Shown here: piece after piece, positions 1-17,320 of the stretch
Layout: each line of letters starts with the position of its first letter
Position numbering within the stretch: position 1 is the first letter of the stretch
Source of the DNA: a virus
Length of the DNA: 21,215 nt
Virus record (IMG/VR): IMGVR_UViG_3300033182_001696
Coordinates: 1 to 21,215 of that record
Strand: one strand, 5' to 3'
Made by a program: the position numbers and the translations under genes
The notes under the pieces: generated by a model
The model's input: only the letters and a program-made list of their open reading frames with translations
Databases searched by the model: none
What the model was told of the DNA's origin: nothing

Positions 1-333
1 ATGAACGACGCAGAAAACCTTGCTAAGCTCATTCGCCACCTACCACCGCACACGTGCCAGGAATTTATTACCAGCCAAATTTCCATAGAATTTCCTGAAC
101 TGGATCGTAAATCGTCTCTGACAATGCAGAGGCAAGCCGCCGCCATCAAATATATGGTCGAGCAAGCAAACAAGGGGAAATGGGAACTTCCCGCCGCTGA
201 AATTCTCGGTAGCGTTTACGGCACACAAAACCTGGGGCGCAGTAGGCGAATGCAAGACCTCTTTAAAAGTAATTCCCAGTGGCGCGATTACATCACAAAT
301 CACGAGAAAGGCATTTGGGGATTCATAACCTAA
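1..333 (+). CDS. Small hypothetical protein upstream of toxin-antitoxin pair
   Basis: This is a 110-residue soluble, basic protein that I do not recognise. The window begins exactly at its ATG, so its ribosome binding site cannot be seen and a longer upstream start cannot be excluded. No membrane segment or signal peptide is visible. Lys/Arg-rich stretches and a His-Cys pair near residues 17-19 are present without a clear motif. It stops at 331-333, just ahead of the toxin promoter, so it is probably a separate transcription unit. The region looks less GC-rich than the early operon downstream, which fits an accessory cargo segment. Confidence 0.55.
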   Translation: MNDAENLAKLIRHLPPHTCQEFITSQISIEFPELDRKSSLTMQRQAAAIKYMVEQANKGKWELPAAEILGSVYGTQNLGRSRRMQDLFKSNSQWRDYITNHEKGIWGFIT

Positions 334-5369: not shown

Positions 5370-6128
5370 ATGTTGGACTTTAATTCATCTAACAACCTGA
5401 GCGAGCGTATCACCGCCTTCATCGATGAGGGGTTGGCAAAGGATCGTAATGCTCAAACCCCACGAGACTACCTTGGTGCCTCACGGTTGGGCGTCGCGTG
5501 TGATCGGGCGCTGCAGTACGAATACCTTAATGCACCCGTCGATACCGGACGTAAGTTCTCAGGTAAAACCCTGCGCATCTTTGAGGCCGGCCATGTCTTT
5601 GAGGAACTGGCGATTAAATGGCTGCGTGATGCGGGCTTTACGCTTCTCACAGAGACTGCGACGGGAGGTCAATTCGGCTTCACTGCAGCCGGCGGTCGGC
5701 TGAAGGGCCATATTGACGGCGTCATTACAGCCGCGCCAGCAGAGCTGGGGCTGACTTTTCCGATGCTATGGGAGTGCAAAAGCCTCAACAACAAATCCTG
5801 GAACGATACCGTCAAGAAAGGAGTCACGATTTCCAAGCCCGTCTACGCCGCCCAAATGGCGATCTATCAGGCATACATGGAAACCGATATCCCGGGCACC
5901 TCTGAGCACCCCGCTCTCTTCACCGCCATCAACAAAGACACCGCCGAGCTCTACTTTGAGTTGGTGCCGTTCAACGCGGAGCTGGCCCAGCAGGCATCGG
6001 ATCGTGCAGTGCGAATCTTGAATGCCTGCGAGGCTCATGAGCTGTTGCCCAGAGCTGCCGCCGATCCCTGTCACTTCACCTGCAAATTCTGCGCATGGCA
6101 GGAGCGTTGCTGGGGAGGCCGGGCATGA
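5370..6128 (+). CDS. PD-(D/E)XK exonuclease, Cas4/RecB-like with Fe-S cysteines
   Basis: This is a 252-residue nuclease starting at ATG 5370 behind a TAGGAGGT site. Visible motifs are G-H-I-D-G with Asp116 and W-E-C-K-S with Glu135 and Lys137, the PD-(D/E)XK catalytic core. A later Q-M-A-I-Y-Q-A-Y-M motif matches the RecB-family Q-x-x-x-Y. Cys44 in A-C-D-R-A together with Cys238, Cys241 and Cys247 near the C-terminus form the four-cysteine Fe-S pattern of Cas4 and AddB. It most likely degrades one strand of linear DNA to provide substrate for the Sak4-like annealing protein, the role of lambda Exo. No CRISPR genes are near, so a CRISPR adaptation role is not suggested. It overlaps the next start by four bases. 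Confidence 0.87.
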   Translation: MLDFNSSNNLSERITAFIDEGLAKDRNAQTPRDYLGASRLGVACDRALQYEYLNAPVDTGRKFSGKTLRIFEAGHVFEELAIKWLRDAGFTLLTETATGGQFGFTAAGGRLKGHIDGVITAAPAELGLTFPMLWECKSLNNKSWNDTVKKGVTISKPVYAAQMAIYQAYMETDIPGTSEHPALFTAINKDTAELYFELVPFNAELAQQASDRAVRILNACEAHELLPRAAADPCHFTCKFCAWQERCWGGRA

Positions 6129-6340
6129 GCAATATCGTTTGGCTCGATTTCAACGATGCGGCCGATCAGCCATCTGAGGACCAGCCATCCAAGCCGACCA
6201 CACAGGAGATCAAACAGCGTCTGCTTGAACGACTACCAGATGTGCTCGGCTCTCTGCTCCCGCGAGGCGTGACGCGCGGCAACCAGTTCCTCGTGGGCGA
6301 TCTGAACGGCAACAGAGGCAAGAGTCTTGTATCTATAAAC
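6125..6340 (+). pseudogene. N-terminal fragment of phage DNA primase/helicase, fused in frame to gpW
   Basis: Starting at ATG 6125, about 69 residues match the beginning of phage primase/helicase proteins as I know them: I-V-W-L-D-F-N-D-A, then L-L-E-R-L-P-D-V-L-G, then R-G-N-Q-F-L-V-G-D-L-N-G-N-x-G-K-S-L-V. In full-length relatives this is followed by the conserved W-H-D-F-A-x-G-x-G-G-D block, zinc-binding and toprim or helicase domains, hundreds of residues more. Here the frame runs after G-K-S-L-V into S-I-N-R-E-E-R and directly into gpW. No primase active site remains. The rest of the primase and everything between it and gpW, including both terminase genes, is absent. Confidence 0.75.
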
Positions 6341-6352
6341 CGCGAGGAGCGC

Positions 6353-6580
6353 ATGACCGAACTGACTGTTTTAAAACAACGCCTGAGCGAAGCCGAAGAG
6401 GCTCTGCATCAGTTACTGACAGGCCAGAAGGAGGCCAGCGTTAACGTCGGTGGATTCGGCAGTATAACCTACTCAGCAGCCAATCAGTCTGAGTTAGTGC
6501 GCTACATCGCGCAGTTAAAACTCGATATTCGCCGACAAGAGCGGGGCATTGGCCGACGCGCTCTGTTTGTGGAGTTTTAA
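6353..6580 (+). CDS. W: gpW-like head-tail joining protein
   Basis: Seventy-five residues from ATG 6353 match the lambda gpW family: an N-terminal helix T-E-L-x-x-L-K-Q-R-L-x-E-A-E-E-A-L-H-x-L-L-T-G, a beta hairpin with S-I-T-Y-S-A-A-N, and a second helix L-x-R-Y-I-A-Q-L-K. gpW closes the filled head beneath the portal and provides the platform for tail attachment. It has its own GAGGAG site at 6344-6349. The frame continues upstream into a primase fragment, but a separate start here gives the usual family length, so this domain is probably intact. It is followed two bases later by the portal start, the lambda order (W then B). Confidence 0.82.
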   Translation: MTELTVLKQRLSEAEEALHQLLTGQKEASVNVGGFGSITYSAANQSELVRYIAQLKLDIRRQERGIGRRALFVEF

Positions 6581-6582
6581 CC

Positions 6583-7425
6583 GTGGCACAACGTGATACG
6601 CGAGACACGGCCCACAGAGCCGCCTCATTAACGGCGCGCGAGTTAACCAGTTGGCAGCCTCGAACAGGCTCCGCTGACAGCGACCTCGTCGATGAGCTCG
6701 GTACCCTTGTCTCGCGTTCAAGGGATTTAGCGCGTAACCACGGTGTGGCTTACATTGCCGCTCGTAGCGACTGGAAAGTTCGCCTGCAAGGCGGTGCGAT
6801 TATTCCGGTATTCCCAGGCGACAAGGTCTCTGCATTTACACCGAGCCGCCCCAACAGTGGCTACGGACAGTTTGTAGAGAACGTGCTACGCCATATTGGC
6901 ACCGGTTTGAACATCCCGTTCGAACTATTGATGAAGGACTTCTCGAAAACCAACTACTCCTCAGCGCGCGCTGCACTTATGGAGGCCTGGCGTTACTTCA
7001 TGGGCCGTCGTCAGTGGTTAGCCACCTATTGGGCGCGCCCGGTGTATGAGCTCTGGTTAGAGGAAGCGATCAATAAAGGGCTGATTGAAGCACCCAACTT
7101 TTATGGAAACAAAGCACTCTGGACACGTTGCAAATGGATTGGTCCAGGGCGTGGTTGGATCGACCCCGTCAAAGAGGCCAAGGCCTCGCAGCTTCGCCTA
7201 GAGACGGGACTTTCCACGCTGGAAGATGAGTGTGCAACTCAAGGATTGGACTGGGAAGAGGTGCTTGAGCAACGGGCTCGCGAGCAGAGCAAAATGCGCG
7301 AATTGGGGCTATCCATTCAACCGATCATGCCAGAGCCAGGAACTGACCCAAGCAACGGCCAACTAAATACCGAACCAGATCACTTACCCGATGAAACCAA
7401 CACTCAGACCAACACCCCTGTTTAA
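6583..7425 (+). pseudogene. Lambda-type portal protein with a large internal deletion
   Basis: The reading frame (GTG 6583, GGAG upstream, 280 residues) joins two separated parts of a lambda B-type portal, normally about 500 residues. Residues 1-56 are the N-terminus, ending R-S-R-D-L-A-R-N-H-G-V-A. From about residue 66 the text is the C-terminal half: I-I-P-V-F-P-G-D-K-V, T-P-S-R-P-N-S-G-Y-G, L-L-M-K-D-F-S-K-T-N-Y-S-S-A-R-A-A-L-M-E-A-W. The roughly 220 residues between them, containing the clip and much of the wing and crown, are missing although the frame stays open. Such a protein could not form a normal dodecameric channel. The C-terminal tail is low-complexity, as usual in this family. 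Confidence 0.82.
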
Positions 7426-9188: not shown

Positions 9189-9638
9189 ATGGATATATTT
9201 TCAACGCACGTGCTCAACCGGGTGGTGGAGCAACTGGAGCGTCCAGCCTCTTTTTTGCTGGACACCTTCTTCCCCTCGATTCAAACCGAGGAGAGTGAAG
9301 AGATACACTTTGATATTGATAAATCAAAACCGCGTCTGGTGCCGTTTGTCTCGCCACTGGTAGAAGGCAAGGTGGTATCGGCAGAAGGCTTTGAGACTCG
9401 CAGCTTCAAACCCGCATACGTCAAAGATAAACGCCGCTTTGACCCCAACGCGCCACTGAAGCGCCTAATCGGTGAGACCATTGGGGGTTCACTCGCACCG
9501 ATGAACCGTCGAGAGGCCGCGCTCAATCGCGCGCTGACCAATCAGGTCGAGAACCTCACCCGTCGTGAAGAGGTGATGGCAGCCGAGGCACTGCGCACAG
9601 GTAAGATCACCGTGGCTGGCGAGGACTATCCGTCTTCA
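9189..9638 (+). pseudogene. gpE-like major capsid protein, C-terminal half missing
   Basis: From ATG 9189 (CCGGAG site) about 148 residues follow the lambda gpE major capsid family: F-S-T-H-V-L-N-R-V-V-E, an F-F-P segment, V-P-F-V-S-P-L-V-E-G-K-V near residue 57, F-K-P-A-Y-V-K-D-K-R, and E-A-L-R-T-G-K-I-T-V-A-G-E-D-Y-P. Full family members are about 340 residues. After D-Y-P-S-S the similarity stops at about 9636 and the frame runs on to 9761 through about 40 Cys/Arg-rich residues that are the tape-measure gene read out of frame. The missing part contains much of the capsid core, so this product should not assemble. Confidence 0.85.
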
Positions 9639-9645
9639 GTCACTA

Positions 9646-12123
9646 GGTCTCGAACCTTCAGCTGCGGCCCTGCGCTCGTATGGCAACACCGCCTCGGCGA
9701 TGGGCAAAGGCTTGATGCAGTTTGTGGAAGCGATTGCCGATGCTGCTACCGGAGAGTTTGAGCGCCTCAAAGAATTCGGCATCAAAGCGCGCACGCAGGG
9801 CGAACAGGTTACATTTACCTTTCAGGGTGTCAGTACCACCGTTGCCAAAGAGAGTCAGGCAATTGAGTCTTACTTGCGACGCATCGGCCAGGTGCAATTT
9901 GCCGGCGCGATGTCCGAGCAGATGGCTACCCTCAACGGCATTATTAGCAACATTCAGGACAACCTATCACGCCTCGCGCGTGAAGTCGGTGCCGGCGGTC
10001 TGAATGATGCGCTCAAAGATATTGCTGTCGATCTGCGCGAAACCACCGTACGGGGTAATGAAGCTGCGCGTGCTCTAGGTGAGTCGCTTGGCGATGTCGT
10101 TCGCACCAGTGCCGATGCATTGGGCTTTATGGCGCGTCATGCCGATGTTGCCGTCAAAGGGTTGGGCGCACTGCTGATTGCGCGTACCGTTGCGGGCGCG
10201 CTCACCCTGATGAACGCCACAATCATCGGTAATGCCGGTGCCATTATCGGCCTTCGAATGATGGCACAGGTCTCACTGATTGCCGCCACTCGCCTTGCAG
10301 TTGTTGAAGGCGCAGCACGTTTAGCATCCGTAGCGATGGTGGGACTGCGTAGCGCAATGGCGCTGGTCGGGGGCCCCGCCGGTATCGCGGTATTGGCTGG
10401 TTTTGCCCTGTGGGAGTTGGCTCGCAGCCAAGATGCGGCACGCCAAGCCGCTTCAGATCATGCAGCGGAGTTGGATGAGATACGTGCACAGGCCAAACGC
10501 GCGGCCGAGAGCATTGAAGATTTAACCGCCGCAACGCGCGATGAAGCCTTAGCGCGTTGGACTGAAAAACTGATCACCGCCGAGCACAACGTAGCGGATG
10601 TGATGGAACAACTCAAAACCGAATGGTGGACCGGCTCCATCTGGGATCGTTTGGGGCGAGTAGGTTCCGACCTACAAGAGAAGCTTGAGTGGACGCGCCG
10701 CTGGTTCCAGATGGGTGTCACCTCGGTGGATGAGTACCGAGCGTCCATCTGGAAGTTGGCACAAGACCATCCCGAATTTACTGCGACTGCGCGAGCGATA
10801 TCCGATCAAATCGACGCCCTGAAAGCGGCCGAGTTAGCCGCTTCACATGCACGCGAACAGATTGATCGTATTAGAAACGGCTCAAGTACCTCTTCGAACG
10901 AGACAGGGCAACCTGAAGATTCGTTAGCACCGGCTTCGCCACCCTCAGCGCCTATCGATACTAAGCGCTCTGAACGTATTCAGGCAGCTATTGCTGATCT
11001 GCAAGCCGAGGAGACAGCATTACGACGACTGATCACAGCACGCTCAGAGAGTGAAACAGCTGTTAATCAGGCCATGTTGCAAACCGAACAGGAGCAAGCG
11101 CTTCGCCGCTTAGGATTGGATCAAACACAAAACCTAACCTCTGCCGAAGCTGCATTAGCTCAACAAATTCGTGATCTGATCGCCTCAAAAGCGATACTCG
11201 AACGACAAGATCAATCGGCCATCGATCGGGACAAAAACCATCGAGAAGCGATAGAGGAAATCACTCGCGCATACCTGGGCCTTGGTTCTGAAACCGACCA
11301 AGCACGTGCCAAAGCCAATCAGTGGCGCAATGAAGCGCTGGCAGGACTGGATGCAACGCGCGAAGGTTATGCCAGCTTTGCCGCTCAGGTTGAGGCTATC
11401 TACCAAAACATGCTGGCAGAGGCCCGTGCCAAAGATCTCGAAAGCTCACGCCTTTGGGAGGATGGGTTAACCCGCGGGTTCAAGGCCGTCTTGGACGAAG
11501 CTGAAGATATGGCCTCACAAACCGAGCGACTGGTGCGCAACGCCTTCAAAGGGATGGAAGATGCGCTGGTCTCGTTTGTAACTACCGGCAAGTTTGATTT
11601 TAAGTCCTTTGCGGACTCTATTATCGCCGACCTACTTCGTATTCAGATTCGCCAGAGCATTACTCAGCCAATCGCCAATGCGCTAGGCAGTATCAACTTT
11701 GGTTCATTTTTTGGCGCAGCGCATACCGGTGGAGTGATTGGCGTTGACGGCCTGCAGTCACGGCAGGTGAGCCCATCAGTTTTCGCTGGGGCGCCTAAGT
11801 TTCATAGCGGTGGAGTCATAGGCGACGAAGTTCCGATCATCGCTAAACGCGGCGAAACCGTCTTTACGCCCGGCCAAATCCGCGCTCTAAAGGATCAGCG
11901 CAGCTCTGCTCCTGTCAACGTTGAAGTCAATGTCATCAACAAAGCCAGCGGTGTTGATACGCGCGTTCAGCAACATCAACAGCCAGATGGTGGGCTGCGA
12001 CTTGACGTGTTCATCGAACAAATTGAAGGGCGGATGGCGAGAGCCATTAGCCAAGGAACCGGCATTGCACCAACCCTGGAGCGCCGGTACGGATTAAACC
12101 CAGCGTATGGAGCGGTGCGATGA
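9646..12123 (+). pseudogene. Tape measure protein, N-terminus missing
   Basis: About 825 residues of a lambda H/TP901-type tape measure remain. The coding text can be traced upstream of the first ATG (9700) to about 9646, reading L-E-P-S-A-A-A-L-R-S-Y-G-N-T-A-S-A-M-G-K before entering capsid sequence, so the true N-terminus and ribosome site are lost. Recognisable parts are the E-R-L-K-E-F-G-I-K-A and F-T-F-Q-G-V-S-T-T-V block, hydrophobic segments around 10130-10420, long Ala/Gln/Arg helices, and the C-terminal F-K-S-F-A-D-S-I-I-A-D-L-L-R-I-Q-I-R block followed by Gly-rich A-H-T-G-G-V-I-G repeats. The tape measure sets tail length and enters the host envelope. ATG 9700 might still give an N-truncated product. 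Confidence 0.87.
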
Positions 12124-12608
12124 CCACCGTGAACAATCTATCGCTCTGGCCTGAAACACTCCCACCACCGCTGGTGGAGGGTTATAGCCTATCACCCAGA
12201 CCAAGTTTGCTGCGCACCGAGATGGAAACCGGTGCAGCACGTCATCGCCTGCGGTCACTCACGGTTCACTATCAAGTGACCGCTGAATGGCGATTTACCC
12301 AGGATGGGCTCGCCATATTTGATGCCTGGTGGGCACAGAACACTCGCATGGGGGAGCAGTGGTTTGTGATGCCACTCGCCGTGCCATTGGATATCCAAGC
12401 GGTTGAAGCTCGCTTTCTTGGCCCCTGGCAGGCAGAACTTCTCCCCGCGAAACGATGGCGAGTCAGCGCTCGCATGGAGATCCGAGACTTACAAAGACTC
12501 ACCGAAGACGAGCTCGCCGTAGCCTCCGTCTATGGCGATCCCGCTATGCAGCTAGCCGATCGACTTCACAAGTGGCTTCACGAACGGATGCCTGAACTTA
12601 AATTTTAA
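12120..12608 (+). CDS. Minor tail protein (tail-tip region)
   Basis: This 162-residue soluble protein overlaps the tape-measure stop by four bases. It begins with L-W-P-E-T-L-P-P-P-L-V-E-G-Y and has alternating aromatic and charged strands (Y-Q-V-T-A-E-W-R-F, W-F-V-M-P-L, W-R-V-S-A-R-M-E-I-R), suggesting a beta-rich fold. I have seen this P-E-T-L-P type of start in siphophage proteins lying right after the tape measure, where the distal tail proteins are encoded. A role at the tail tip or distal tail is inferred from position; no enzymatic motif is visible. Confidence 0.68.
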   Translation: MTTVNNLSLWPETLPPPLVEGYSLSPRPSLLRTEMETGAARHRLRSLTVHYQVTAEWRFTQDGLAIFDAWWAQNTRMGEQWFVMPLAVPLDIQAVEARFLGPWQAELLPAKRWRVSARMEIRDLQRLTEDELAVASVYGDPAMQLADRLHKWLHERMPELKF

Positions 12609-12617
12609 GGATCGATT

Positions 12618-13469
12618 ATGTCTCTCAAAGACCGCTTAGACAGCTCTGTTTCCCAGTTAGAAACTGACTCAAACCTGGTTCACGACTGGGCGCATGGTGA
12701 CAGCCAAAAGGTCATTAGCACCGAAGGTGGTAACGTCCGTTCACCAGCCAAGCTTATTGCAGATAAAGATGCAGAGATTAATACCGGTGCAGAGAGCCTA
12801 CTATCACATGCAACTAAAGCCGTAGCCGATGCTTCAACATCGGCAGAAACAGCAGCAGAAAAAGCATCCGAAGCGTCTACATCTGCGAAGGAAGCCAACA
12901 CGTCTGAAGATAACGCCGCGGACTCTGCCAGTGCTTCAGCGTCCAGCGCCACGAGTGCAGCAAAGTCAGCAACAGCAGCAAGCAGCTCCGCCAAAGCGGC
13001 TGCAACCAGTGCAAACAATGCCGCTACTTCTGAAGCCAATACGAGTACGTTGGCTACTGAAGCGGCCAATTCGGCAGATGCAGCCAGTTCCAGCGCAGCC
13101 ACCGCATCAAATGAAGCGACAGACGCACAAAGCAGTGCAACACTGGCAGAGAGCTTTGCCAATGGGGCCGACGCATCTGCAAAGGCCGCCCGAACATCTG
13201 AAACACAGGCTAATACCAGCGCAGCAGGTGCTCAAACCTCCGCGGAGAAGGCAGCATCCTCCTCACTGACGGCAAGCAAACAAGCAGACGCTGCGCGGGA
13301 ATCTGCAGTTGCAGCCCTTGCAAGTGAAAGCGCATCAACCCAGGCAGAAAGCGCGTGTGCTGACTATGTGGAGTTAGCCGATACCCTGGTGATCTCTCCC
13401 TATGCCCGCATGGCTTCCCAACTGATTCGTACCCAAGCAGTCGTGGTTGATCACCACGCCTTCACCTGA
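12618..13469 (+). CDS. Ala/Ser-rich coiled-coil tail fibre stalk protein
   Basis: Of 283 residues, positions 60-245 are almost wholly Ala, Ser, Thr, Glu, Asn and Lys, in a loose heptad-like pattern (A-A-x-S-A, S-A-x-x-A-A), typical of lambda Stf-like tail fibre stalk repeats. The first 50 residues include V-H-D-W-A-H-G-D, and the last 35 change to hydrophobic S-P-Y-A-R-M-A-S-Q-L-I-R-T-Q. The likely role is a trimeric stalk or adaptor joining the tail to the larger fibre encoded next. It has no receptor-binding head of its own. The repeat composition makes the opposite strand open as well; I treat that as a shadow. Confidence 0.72.
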   Translation: MSLKDRLDSSVSQLETDSNLVHDWAHGDSQKVISTEGGNVRSPAKLIADKDAEINTGAESLLSHATKAVADASTSAETAAEKASEASTSAKEANTSEDNAADSASASASSATSAAKSATAASSSAKAAATSANNAATSEANTSTLATEAANSADAASSSAATASNEATDAQSSATLAESFANGADASAKAARTSETQANTSAAGAQTSAEKAASSSLTASKQADAARESAVAALASESASTQAESACADYVELADTLVISPYARMASQLIRTQAVVVDHHAFT

Positions 13470-13485
13470 TTAAAAAGGAGCCGAT

Positions 13486-16107
13486 ATGGCTGATACCAGT
13501 AATAGTCCATTAATGGCTGAAGTGGCAGCGCTCACAGAAGCGACCACCGAGTTACTGACTAACGTTAATGTGCGCAAAAGCACCTTAGATGAGAAAGTCG
13601 ATGACGCGGCTGCTAGCGCACAATCTTCAGCGCAAAGCGCTACCGCCTCAAACGAGAGTGCTCAGCTTGCCGCGACAGCCTTGGAAGAGACAGAACTAGC
13701 ACGTGACACCACCTTCACCTATCGTGATGAAGCCGTTGCCGTGGTCACCAGCAATGATGGTTCGTTTGAATCTGCGCCGGGTAAAGTTCCAGTAGCAGGG
13801 CTGGATGGCAAAATTGATTATGACTATTTGCCGCTTCTGGAGCACAACTCCATAGTGGCTGAGGCGCTGATACAGGCAACTCATGAGAATCTTCAGGACT
13901 TTTTTGAAGATCGAGAAGTCAGCACTCAAGTTGTCCAAAACAGCAACCAACTTTCCGAACTGACGGCTCATGTCGACAGTGAAGTAGCTCGGCTTAATCA
14001 ATCGATAGACTCAATTGAGCCAGGCATACCCCCTGTCTATAAAGGGCTGATCGAGCAAGATTTTCTCGTCGATGGCTTTGAGTCAGCCTACACCGCAGAG
14101 ATTTTGCGAGGCATGGGTGGATCGGGGCTATACAGCACTCGTAACTATTCGATAGATGATGGCTTCCAAGCATTACACCGGCCTTTCACAGTCACCTCCA
14201 CGGCACAGTTTCAGCATAACCACCCAAACTACTACCGCATGGTGGGGTTGGGCGAACTATGCGCCATCGTCAACGGCTACTACGTGCGCACCACACATAA
14301 CGATCCGACACTGATTGATCAGGATGGGGCTATTCTCAGTGCTCCGGAAGTACCAGCATCGGTGCTGGCAAAGCCAACGGGTATTTCGCTCAACGGAGAT
14401 GGATCCGTCAGTATCGATACCGCTGGTGACACTCAAGCTAGATACATGCGCAATCTATTTACTGATTCGCTTGAAGATACCCGACTGGACCTTCTTTATT
14501 TGGAAGTGTGGCTTGAGAAACTGCCTGTATCGGGCGAACTGAATACGACAATCCAGTCATTCCGCCATCAGGAGAACGCCAATAAGCTGCGCGACCTACT
14601 CAACTTCGCAGAGAAACTAAACTTCTCCGGAGCCAAGGATCTACCCGAAAACGGCTCTTTCAGAAGTGGTGTCATCACACTGGTTGATGAGAATGGCGTG
14701 CCAGAATATGCCTACGTCAATTACCGATTGCGCGCCCGTTCAGTAGGCAAACTGGCCGATCGTGTTACTAAAACCAGTTACACCGCCGGCGACCAAACGC
14801 CTGCTATCTCATTTGGGGTTGTCGCTTCCAGCTTTGGGGGTACCCACGGTCACGCGCTAGATGTTCCGCTAACCGCCGTTGAAATGAATAGCCTGCTCAG
14901 CGGCGGCACGCTTTACGTTGAAACCAGTTATGGGAAATCCCCTGCATCTCCAGATGCTGAATCGCACTCCCATCTTCGAGAAATCCGTTGGAATGGAACC
15001 AGTTTAGTCGGCAGTTCGCTGGGGGCTAGAGCAGAAGGATCCGAAGCGGATACCTTCGTAGCGGTTGCAAGCACACCTCCTAGCATTACTAGTTACCGAA
15101 AAGCGGACGGTAGTTACGGTGGCACAATCAATTGGATTATTGGGACCTCACCCCATCAGCACCCAATGGATATTCAGAGCGTACAAGACCGTTTCCCGTT
15201 CGATCTGGATAAAGCGGTACGCCATATTATTGATGACACAAACCGCTTTAAACTGGTGAAAGATTCTGAAGCCCTAAACCGCCTTCGTGAACGGAGTAAC
15301 GCTAACGCCGGTTGGGTTGAACTAGCGCTGTCCGGGCTTGCGCGCTTCACACTAGATCAAGAGAGTATGGATGCACTCTGTACTCAAATTTGGGGGCTTG
15401 ATGGCGAGGGAGCGTATATCCCAGAAGCCATCAACTCATATGGCACCACCTTCACAACCTATAACGTCGTCGGCAGTGCTCAGGCAAACCTCGCAAAATA
15501 TAACCGCACCTACAAAATCGGCAGCAGCGACGCAGCAGGCCGAACAGTTGCGCGGCGTGGCTTCAATGACCCAACCCTGTATGTAGCACGCACCACAAAA
15601 CCGAATGTGGTTGAAGGTTACAGCTACATGATTCCACTAGAGCTGATCGTCCGATCACCCCTAGAAGTCTGGAATCCCTGGGATCTAATCACAATTGATG
15701 GTAATGGCAGCCAAGGTACTGGTGCCGGCACACAAGCGAGCCCCTGGAATGCTGCTTACACTCGGTTGTGGTGGAATCTAATGCCACCGAAGTTCTTCTC
15801 TGCCGGCGTTTCAGACCCCGCCGATACAACCTCAGGTGGCGTTTGGATTAAAGCCCAAGACGGTAATGCCTACCCAGCCGACAACTCCGGCATCACCATT
15901 ACCCGTGGCAATGCCGCTGACTACCGTGATGCCAATAACGCGCTGCTTTCAAATACCTTCCGATTTCGTTACGCGATTGCCCCTGCGTGGCATGAATTTA
16001 CTTACTCCAACATCCAGCTGAACAACTTCAAAAACACCATCAAGGAAGTATTGAAAGAAGTCGTTGCTGGCACGGCCACAGACAGCGATATCGAAAAGCT
16101 TCTCTAA
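13486..16107 (+). CDS. Large tail fibre / receptor-binding protein
   Basis: This 873-residue protein has an AAAAAGGAG site. Residues 1-80 form an Ala/Ser coiled coil like that of the preceding gene. Then comes G-K-V-P-V-A-G-L-D-G-K-I-D-Y-D-Y-L-P, the linker pattern often seen in Stf-like fibres. The remaining 650 residues are a long Gly/Asn/Thr-rich region with frequent aromatics, expected to be beta-structured. Four H-x-H pairs are seen: H244/H246, H454/H456, H494/H496 and H557/H559, possible metal sites. It is probably the main host-recognition fibre. The exact family and receptor cannot be told from sequence. Confidence 0.75.
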   Translation: MADTSNSPLMAEVAALTEATTELLTNVNVRKSTLDEKVDDAAASAQSSAQSATASNESAQLAATALEETELARDTTFTYRDEAVAVVTSNDGSFESAPGKVPVAGLDGKIDYDYLPLLEHNSIVAEALIQATHENLQDFFEDREVSTQVVQNSNQLSELTAHVDSEVARLNQSIDSIEPGIPPVYKGLIEQDFLVDGFESAYTAEILRGMGGSGLYSTRNYSIDDGFQALHRPFTVTSTAQFQHNHPNYYRMVGLGELCAIVNGYYVRTTHNDPTLIDQDGAILSAPEVPASVLAKPTGISLNGDGSVSIDTAGDTQARYMRNLFTDSLEDTRLDLLYLEVWLEKLPVSGELNTTIQSFRHQENANKLRDLLNFAEKLNFSGAKDLPENGSFRSGVITLVDENGVPEYAYVNYRLRARSVGKLADRVTKTSYTAGDQTPAISFGVVASSFGGTHGHALDVPLTAVEMNSLLSGGTLYVETSYGKSPASPDAESHSHLREIRWNGTSLVGSSLGARAEGSEADTFVAVASTPPSITSYRKADGSYGGTINWIIGTSPHQHPMDIQSVQDRFPFDLDKAVRHIIDDTNRFKLVKDSEALNRLRERSNANAGWVELALSGLARFTLDQESMDALCTQIWGLDGEGAYIPEAINSYGTTFTTYNVVGSAQANLAKYNRTYKIGSSDAAGRTVARRGFNDPTLYVARTTKPNVVEGYSYMIPLELIVRSPLEVWNPWDLITIDGNGSQGTGAGTQASPWNAAYTRLWWNLMPPKFFSAGVSDPADTTSGGVWIKAQDGNAYPADNSGITITRGNAADYRDANNALLSNTFRFRYAIAPAWHEFTYSNIQLNNFKNTIKEVLKEVVAGTATDSDIEKLL

Positions 16108-16147
16108 CTATCCCTTCGCTAATTAATTCCCCAATGAGGACCCAATC

Positions 16148-16996
16148 ATGACCGTAGAAACAGATCTACAAAATGCTGTGGCAGCAGCCTCGGCACTTAA
16201 TCAAACTGTTCGAAGTGAAATTGATGCGATAGATGCAGCCCTCGAGAACGCGATCACTCAAAACCAGACTCAAACCAACGACGCCATCAGCTCCTTGGAC
16301 TCGAAGGTGACGAATTATGTTTCGAACGCAAGAGGAGAGTATCCACTGCCTCCGAACTTAATAAGCAATAGTTTTATGATAGAGCTAGAGGAGGCGCTGC
16401 CCTTAGGATTTGGGTACTCCGGTGTCCAAATTGAGGCTGTTCACCCCTATACACATGCATTTGAAGGACCCTATGTCGAGAATAAACCTTCAACAGCAGT
16501 GGATGATATTACCCTAGCAACCCAATCAACCCCTTATTGGTTTGGAAGGTACAACAAAGGACCTCGAATCTCACGAGGTGGACTTGCCGATGGATGGAAC
16601 GGTATTGGCACCGGACACATTCTGAAAATCACAGCTTCACCAAGTGACACAAGATCATGGACCACCGTGTATTTCCCCATGGCACGATTAGCCAGCACCA
16701 ATCAAATTGGTTTCAGGGGGTATTTAAAGATTGTTCAAGGAACATCTGCCGGTTTCGGTACGGATAGTGGCTATCAAGGATCACCACGTGGTTATACCGT
16801 TACAAAAAACCAAACAGATGCCGCGCCTCAAGGATGGCTAAAGCTAGCTTTTACTCGAGGTACATCCCAGGTTACTAGACCAATGTCATCAAACTTCTGC
16901 CTGGGCTTTCGACGCGATGAACCAATTGAAGCATACCTAGCCCTTCCATACGCCTACATTCCAGCGGGCGCCTCGCCGGGCATTGTTCTTGAATAA
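16148..16996 (+). CDS. Second, shorter fibre-type protein
   Basis: This 282-residue protein starts at ATG 16148 behind TGAGGA. Residues 1-60 are a predicted coiled coil (N-A-V-A-A-A-S-A-L-N-Q-T-V-R-S-E-I-D) resembling the start of the preceding fibre. From residue 68 there is a beta-rich, aromatic and Gly-rich domain with P-Y-W-F-G-R-Y-N-K-G-P-R and W-N-G-I-G-T-G. The plan of stalk plus compact C-terminal domain suits a tail fibre or adhesin tip. The DNA is more AT-rich than neighbouring tail genes, which may mark a swapped host-range segment. No specific family is recognised. Confidence 0.6.
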   Translation: MTVETDLQNAVAAASALNQTVRSEIDAIDAALENAITQNQTQTNDAISSLDSKVTNYVSNARGEYPLPPNLISNSFMIELEEALPLGFGYSGVQIEAVHPYTHAFEGPYVENKPSTAVDDITLATQSTPYWFGRYNKGPRISRGGLADGWNGIGTGHILKITASPSDTRSWTTVYFPMARLASTNQIGFRGYLKIVQGTSAGFGTDSGYQGSPRGYTVTKNQTDAAPQGWLKLAFTRGTSQVTRPMSSNFCLGFRRDEPIEAYLALPYAYIPAGASPGIVLE

Positions 16997-17006
16997 GGAG
17001 TGAAAG

Positions 17007-17309
17007 ATGAAAGTATTTATCGAAAACGATTTCTTTGGAGATTTCATTAACCAAACCGAGGCCGAAGAAATACTAAAAATAAGTGAAATACCGATTGATA
17101 CGGTTCGCTTTGAGGCCAGGCCAAATGAAGCTCGACGCCTATGTGCCAGTCACATCACCCATCATTATCCAGAATGGAAGCAGTTAAACATCCTGCGATC
17201 TGGTGATAAAGATGAACTAACCAGAATGAGCATCTTTATTGATTCCTGTAGAGCTTGGTCAAATGAAGACAAGCCATCCCCTGTCACCCTTCGCTCAATT
17301 ACGCCCTGA
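17007..17309 (+). CDS. Small protein following the fibres, possible fibre-assembly companion
   Basis: This 100-residue protein has a TAAGGAGTG site that overlaps the previous stop. The C-terminal portion (H-H-Y-P-E-W-K-Q-L-N-I-L-R then M-S-I-F-I-D-S-C-R-A-W-S) resembles the Y-P-x-W-K-Q-x-N helix pattern seen in small proteins next to phage tail fibre genes, some of which act as fibre-assembly chaperones. It is directly downstream of the fibre genes and shares their lower GC content. The chaperone idea is inference; it may equally be a small structural component. Confidence 0.55.
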   Translation: MKVFIENDFFGDFINQTEAEEILKISEIPIDTVRFEARPNEARRLCASHITHHYPEWKQLNILRSGDKDELTRMSIFIDSCRAWSNEDKPSPVTLRSITP

Positions 17310-17320
17310 GGAGACTGTTA

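Follow-up and report, generated by a model that had tools for sequence, protein, structure and literature searches.

A fused primase-gpW reading frame and the probable recent decay of a lambda-like prophage

Background

Deletion is the typical route by which prophages are lost, and relaxed selection in the dead genes is a usual, though not a defining, sign of a cryptic prophage; it is not expected where inactivation is recent. In incomplete prophages, structural genes and the terminase are reported to be lost preferentially, and tail fibres to be enriched in short prophages (PMC7744054). The DNA analysed in the current study (the window) makes up the whole of the IMG/VR virus record IMGVR_UViG_3300033182_001696, 21,215 bases without N. 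It shares with the cryptic prophages of that survey the loss of terminase, portal and capsid genes and the retention of tail fibre genes, but differs in that every lesion seen in it is a large deletion, with no point decay yet.

The head module of the window's group follows the order of phage lambda (A, W, B, C, D, E), with a gpA-type terminase (present in the relative described below), gpW, a lambda-family portal, an S49 protease, gpD and gpE. Unlike lambda, this group places its replication genes (Toprim/AAA primase, helicase, nuclease) upstream of this module, and its sequence is distant. The window is best explained as a very recently decayed lambda-like prophage formed by illegitimate deletions (probability about 0.7), and the host was probably a gammaproteobacterium.

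An intact relative

The record IMGVR_UViG_2910798829_000001 (43,750 bases; abbreviated ref) is an intact relative that is collinear with the window and has the same gene order. The two align in blocks of 85–92% nucleotide identity up to 16.2 kb, and at about 70% over the last 3.5 kb. The relative has what the window lacks: complete genes for primase, portal, capsid, tail tube and tape measure, together with a methylase gene, an M15 peptidase gene and the genes of both terminase subunits. Its left end (L044 1–880) lies directly beside smpB and ssrA (tmRNA, tag ANDDNYALAA), followed by a gene that reads as recombinase-like from its sequence only. Because smpB, the tmRNA gene and a recombinase-like gene follow one another at this end, the relative is most likely an integrated prophage. 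The window opens with an ATG at its first base and closes with a stop codon, and no terminal repeat of 10–399 bases was found in it. Such ends suggest that the record was cut out of a longer contig along gene boundaries, which, together with the place of the relative beside smpB/tmRNA, would point to integration of the window as well.

The primase-gpW frame

The sequence-only reading had proposed that the frame from nt 6125 begins with some 69 residues of a phage primase/helicase, changes character at about nt 6326–6344 and leads into a gpW gene with its own GAGGAG and ATG, and that neither terminase subunit lies in the window. Comparison with the intact relative bears this out and places the change precisely (Table 1). 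Nucleotides 6125–6580 form a single open frame of 151 aa from the natural primase start (the ORF that contains it spans nt 6095–6580 at full length), of which residues 69–151 share 96.4% amino acid identity with ref 22356–22604. The switch lies at nt 6330, where one T is common to both sides: in nucleotide alignments, only the primase copy matches to the left of it and only the gpW copy to the right. The assignment of gpW is based on the Pfam match of residues 77–151 and on the position of the gene directly before a lambda-family portal gene. The Toprim and AAA domains of the primase lie at residues 200–506 of the full protein, of which the window keeps only residues 1–69, and the 70-residue piece by itself gave no PHROG match.

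In the relative, the sequence absent at J1 carries primase residues 70–723, the M15 peptidase, an N6/N4 DNA methylase, and the small (phrog_57) and large (gpA-type) terminase subunits. The counterpart of ref 13257–22356, with both terminase genes, is absent from the window except for its last 8 bases; no terminase-like ORF was recognised in the window, the genes of which map in order onto the relative. The identity of the missing part, formerly drawn from family knowledge, is now given by direct comparison, as the relative carries exactly the remainder of the primase and the terminase genes between the two halves.

The primase-gpW frame is best read as the scar of this 9.1 kb deletion and not as a new kind of protein. 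The fusion itself appears incidental and would have no function of its own, since gpW retains its own ribosome-binding site and ATG; as both are unchanged, gpW is predicted to be translatable as before. The primase frame reads into gpW because it happens to be free of stops ahead of that gene, a one-in-three accident plus the absence of a stop over 22 bases.

Table 1. Features at the four junctions of the window (ref, IMGVR_UViG_2910798829_000001; b, bases)
Feature	Position (nt)	Strand	Remarks
ORF combining the initial ~44 codons of one gene with the final ~67 codons of the gene that follows	1–333	+	J0 at ~130, about 1.86 kb lost
5' remnant of primase/helicase gene, residues 1–69 of 723	6125–6331	+	97.1% aa identity to ref 13051–13257; full protein of the relative carries Toprim and AAA domains; its PHROG match is the DNA primase/helicase family
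Junction J1	6330		Joins ref 13256 to ref 22357; 9,101 b lost; 1 b shared
Last 8 bases of terminase large subunit gene (..CTA TAA)	6331–6338	+	Frame differs from that of the fusion; terminase ORF ends at ref 22365
GAGGAG ribosome-binding site of gpW	6344–6349	+	Same as in the intact relative
gpW, head-tail joining protein, complete	6353–6580	+	In frame with primase remnant; PF02831, E = 1.9e-10; 96–99% identical to closest relatives
Portal gene with in-frame internal deletion of 705 b	6583–7425	+	280 aa vs 515 aa in the relative
Junction J2, inside portal gene	6750–6751		2 b shared (TT)
Major capsid gene (gpE family), truncated at about residue 147	9189–9761	+	PF03864 profile positions 1–138 of 329; 343 aa in the relative
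Junction J3	9627–9631		4,984 b lost; 2–5 b shared
Tape-measure gene without its first ~134 codons	9632–12123	+	965 aa in the relative

Other junctions

A view restricted to the primase-gpW joint understates the case. Besides J1, at least three more collinear deletions were found (J0, J2 and J3), which makes four or more such junctions in the record, and the total missing relative to the intact prophage is about 16.6 kb. Between the two halves joined at J0, some 1.84–1.86 kb is kept in the relative, in L009, L012, L016 and L030, and in others. The N-terminal 44 codons of the J0 ORF are only about 50–55% identical to the relatives, against 86–90% for its C-terminal part; the left part is an unusually diverged allele, and because of this divergence J0 cannot be placed to the base. 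The deletion at J3 took the 3' part of the capsid gene, the tail tube, the assembly chaperone and the 5' part of the tape-measure gene to codon ~134. This joint is out of frame, so that the capsid frame continues beyond it in out-of-frame tape-measure DNA.

No inversion or reordering relative to the intact prophage was seen in the window. Long repeats as the driver of the deletions are ruled out, as a repeat scan of the window found none at the junctions; the overlaps at J1–J3 are 1–5 bases. A chimera of two strains at J3 was also considered, as identity to the main relative falls from about 91% to about 84% to the right of this junction. The drop is not decisive, because L050 and L052 reach about 86–96% identity on that side (in 100-base steps) and identity is patchy elsewhere in the family.

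Related records

Nearby IMG/VR records, most of them about 88–93% identical, are unbroken at the junctions wherever they reach them. L009 and L011 continue through the primase with no break at J1; L002 and L003 are unbroken from the terminase through gpW, portal and capsid; L050, L051, L052 and L060 run across the right side of J3 into the tape measure; and L009, L012, L016 and others are unbroken across J0. None of the relatives examined shares any junction with the window. Search patterns across J1, J2 and J3, with degenerate positions wherever the relatives vary, gave zero matches in IMG/VR records other than the window's own.

A primase-gpW fusion occurring elsewhere as a normal gene was also sought. 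A relative of the primase start is encoded by 32 IMG/VR records, and no second fusion was found among these, among the records found with either half, or by a scan for the junction word; a conserved fusion gene is therefore ruled out. A scan of genomes for gpW returned only a distant Salipiger locus. SmpB of the intact relative led to a family (that of G306) in which genome G438 carries a related prophage with a portal 78% identical; the distance between the nuclease end and the portal match is about 9.6 kb in that prophage, compared with about 0.6 kb in the window.

Origin of the missing blocks

According to the favoured explanation, illegitimate recombination using 1–5 bases of homology would have removed at least four blocks, after integration and in the host chromosome; at J1 it would have brought primase codon 69 up against the final bases of the gene for the large terminase subunit. 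The window is collinear with, and derived from, an intact prophage, and its virion genes are disrupted (portal, capsid, tape measure) or missing (terminase). Sequence comparison shows the absent blocks to be deletions relative to many collinear relatives, and we infer that these deletions are real. Every missing block is present in a collinear relative, and the retained DNA keeps the ancestral order and orientation. Decay also fits in that terminase, portal, capsid, tail tube and a peptidase have gone while the tail fibres remain, as has been described for incomplete prophages (PMC7744054). Lacking a terminase, an intact portal, a full capsid protein and a tail tube, the element is predicted to be unable to make virions.

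Several observations count against decay. The broken genes show no relaxed selection, and no second record has any of the junctions. On the window branch, the retained portal, capsid and tape-measure sequences have 15 nonsynonymous and 85 synonymous changes (dN/dS 0.057), equal to the background on two other branches (0.056). Neutral evolution can account for no more than a few per cent of the branch: with as little as 5% of it neutral, a count no higher than that observed would have a probability of 0.008. Neither a frameshift nor a stop was seen in the other ORFs of the window. With neither relaxed selection nor point lesions, the deletions must be of very recent date or else artefacts. If real, the prophage has been caught at the very start of decay, with large deletions preceding point mutations.

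The main rival, less likely than prophage decay and on balance unlikely, is a fault of assembly or scaffolding, in which the contigs of an intact prophage, placed in order, were linked at their ends and the gaps closed, giving four false deletions; the primase-gpW joint, too, may be such a fault. This would explain the absence of relaxed selection in all broken genes, the restriction of the junctions to one record, and the occurrence of four large deletions in that record with no point lesion. However, the record contains no N, overlaps of 1–5 bases are far too short for a misjoin in a k-mer graph, and the order and orientation of the five pieces are unlike a random misjoin, so that the fault would have to come from a scaffolder that preserved the order and stripped the gaps.

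It is improbable that the record is a defective-interfering or satellite-like element, derived by deletion from an active phage and maintained through copying and packaging by an intact helper. Recent, collinear deletions would suit such an element, and intact near relatives are common in IMG/VR, but the deletions have taken the primase as well as the sequence upstream of the terminase genes, the position of cos in lambda-like phages, and the ends of the record look gene-trimmed rather than terminally repeated. More improbable still is a shrunken derivative of an active phage, parasitic on its intact relatives, in which selection for a smaller genome, rather than decay, raised the deletions. 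That the frame encodes a functional fusion protein is very hard to credit: it is a single open frame of 151 aa, but its primase part stops at residue 69, ahead of Toprim and AAA, gpW retains its own start, no other member turned up in the records retrieved with either half, and this record also has its portal, capsid and tape-measure genes cut. The case calls for caution: an odd fused ORF seen in a viral contig may have been left by a deletion, and comparison with a single intact relative explains it.

Tail and toxin-antitoxin regions

Affinity within the family shifts over nt 9627–16209, where identity to the intact relative falls to about 85% while L061 reaches 93% over nt 11605–16230; L050 and L052 are about 86–88% identical overall, and above 90% near J3. 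Such changes would be a sign of mosaic tail genes in this lambda-like prophage group. The tail-fibre region (nt 16210–17319) is replaced relative to the intact prophage, with no nucleotide alignment, and no counterpart of its 100-aa ORF (nt 17007–17309) was found in that comparison.

Near its left end (nt 344–985), the window carries a toxin (phrog_3445) and a repressor-like antitoxin. The same ~256 bases of the toxin gene (nt 390–645 of the window) are missing from both the intact relative (256 bases) and L009, and both keep the antitoxin, so that the decayed prophage has a complete toxin-antitoxin pair and the intact one a broken pair.
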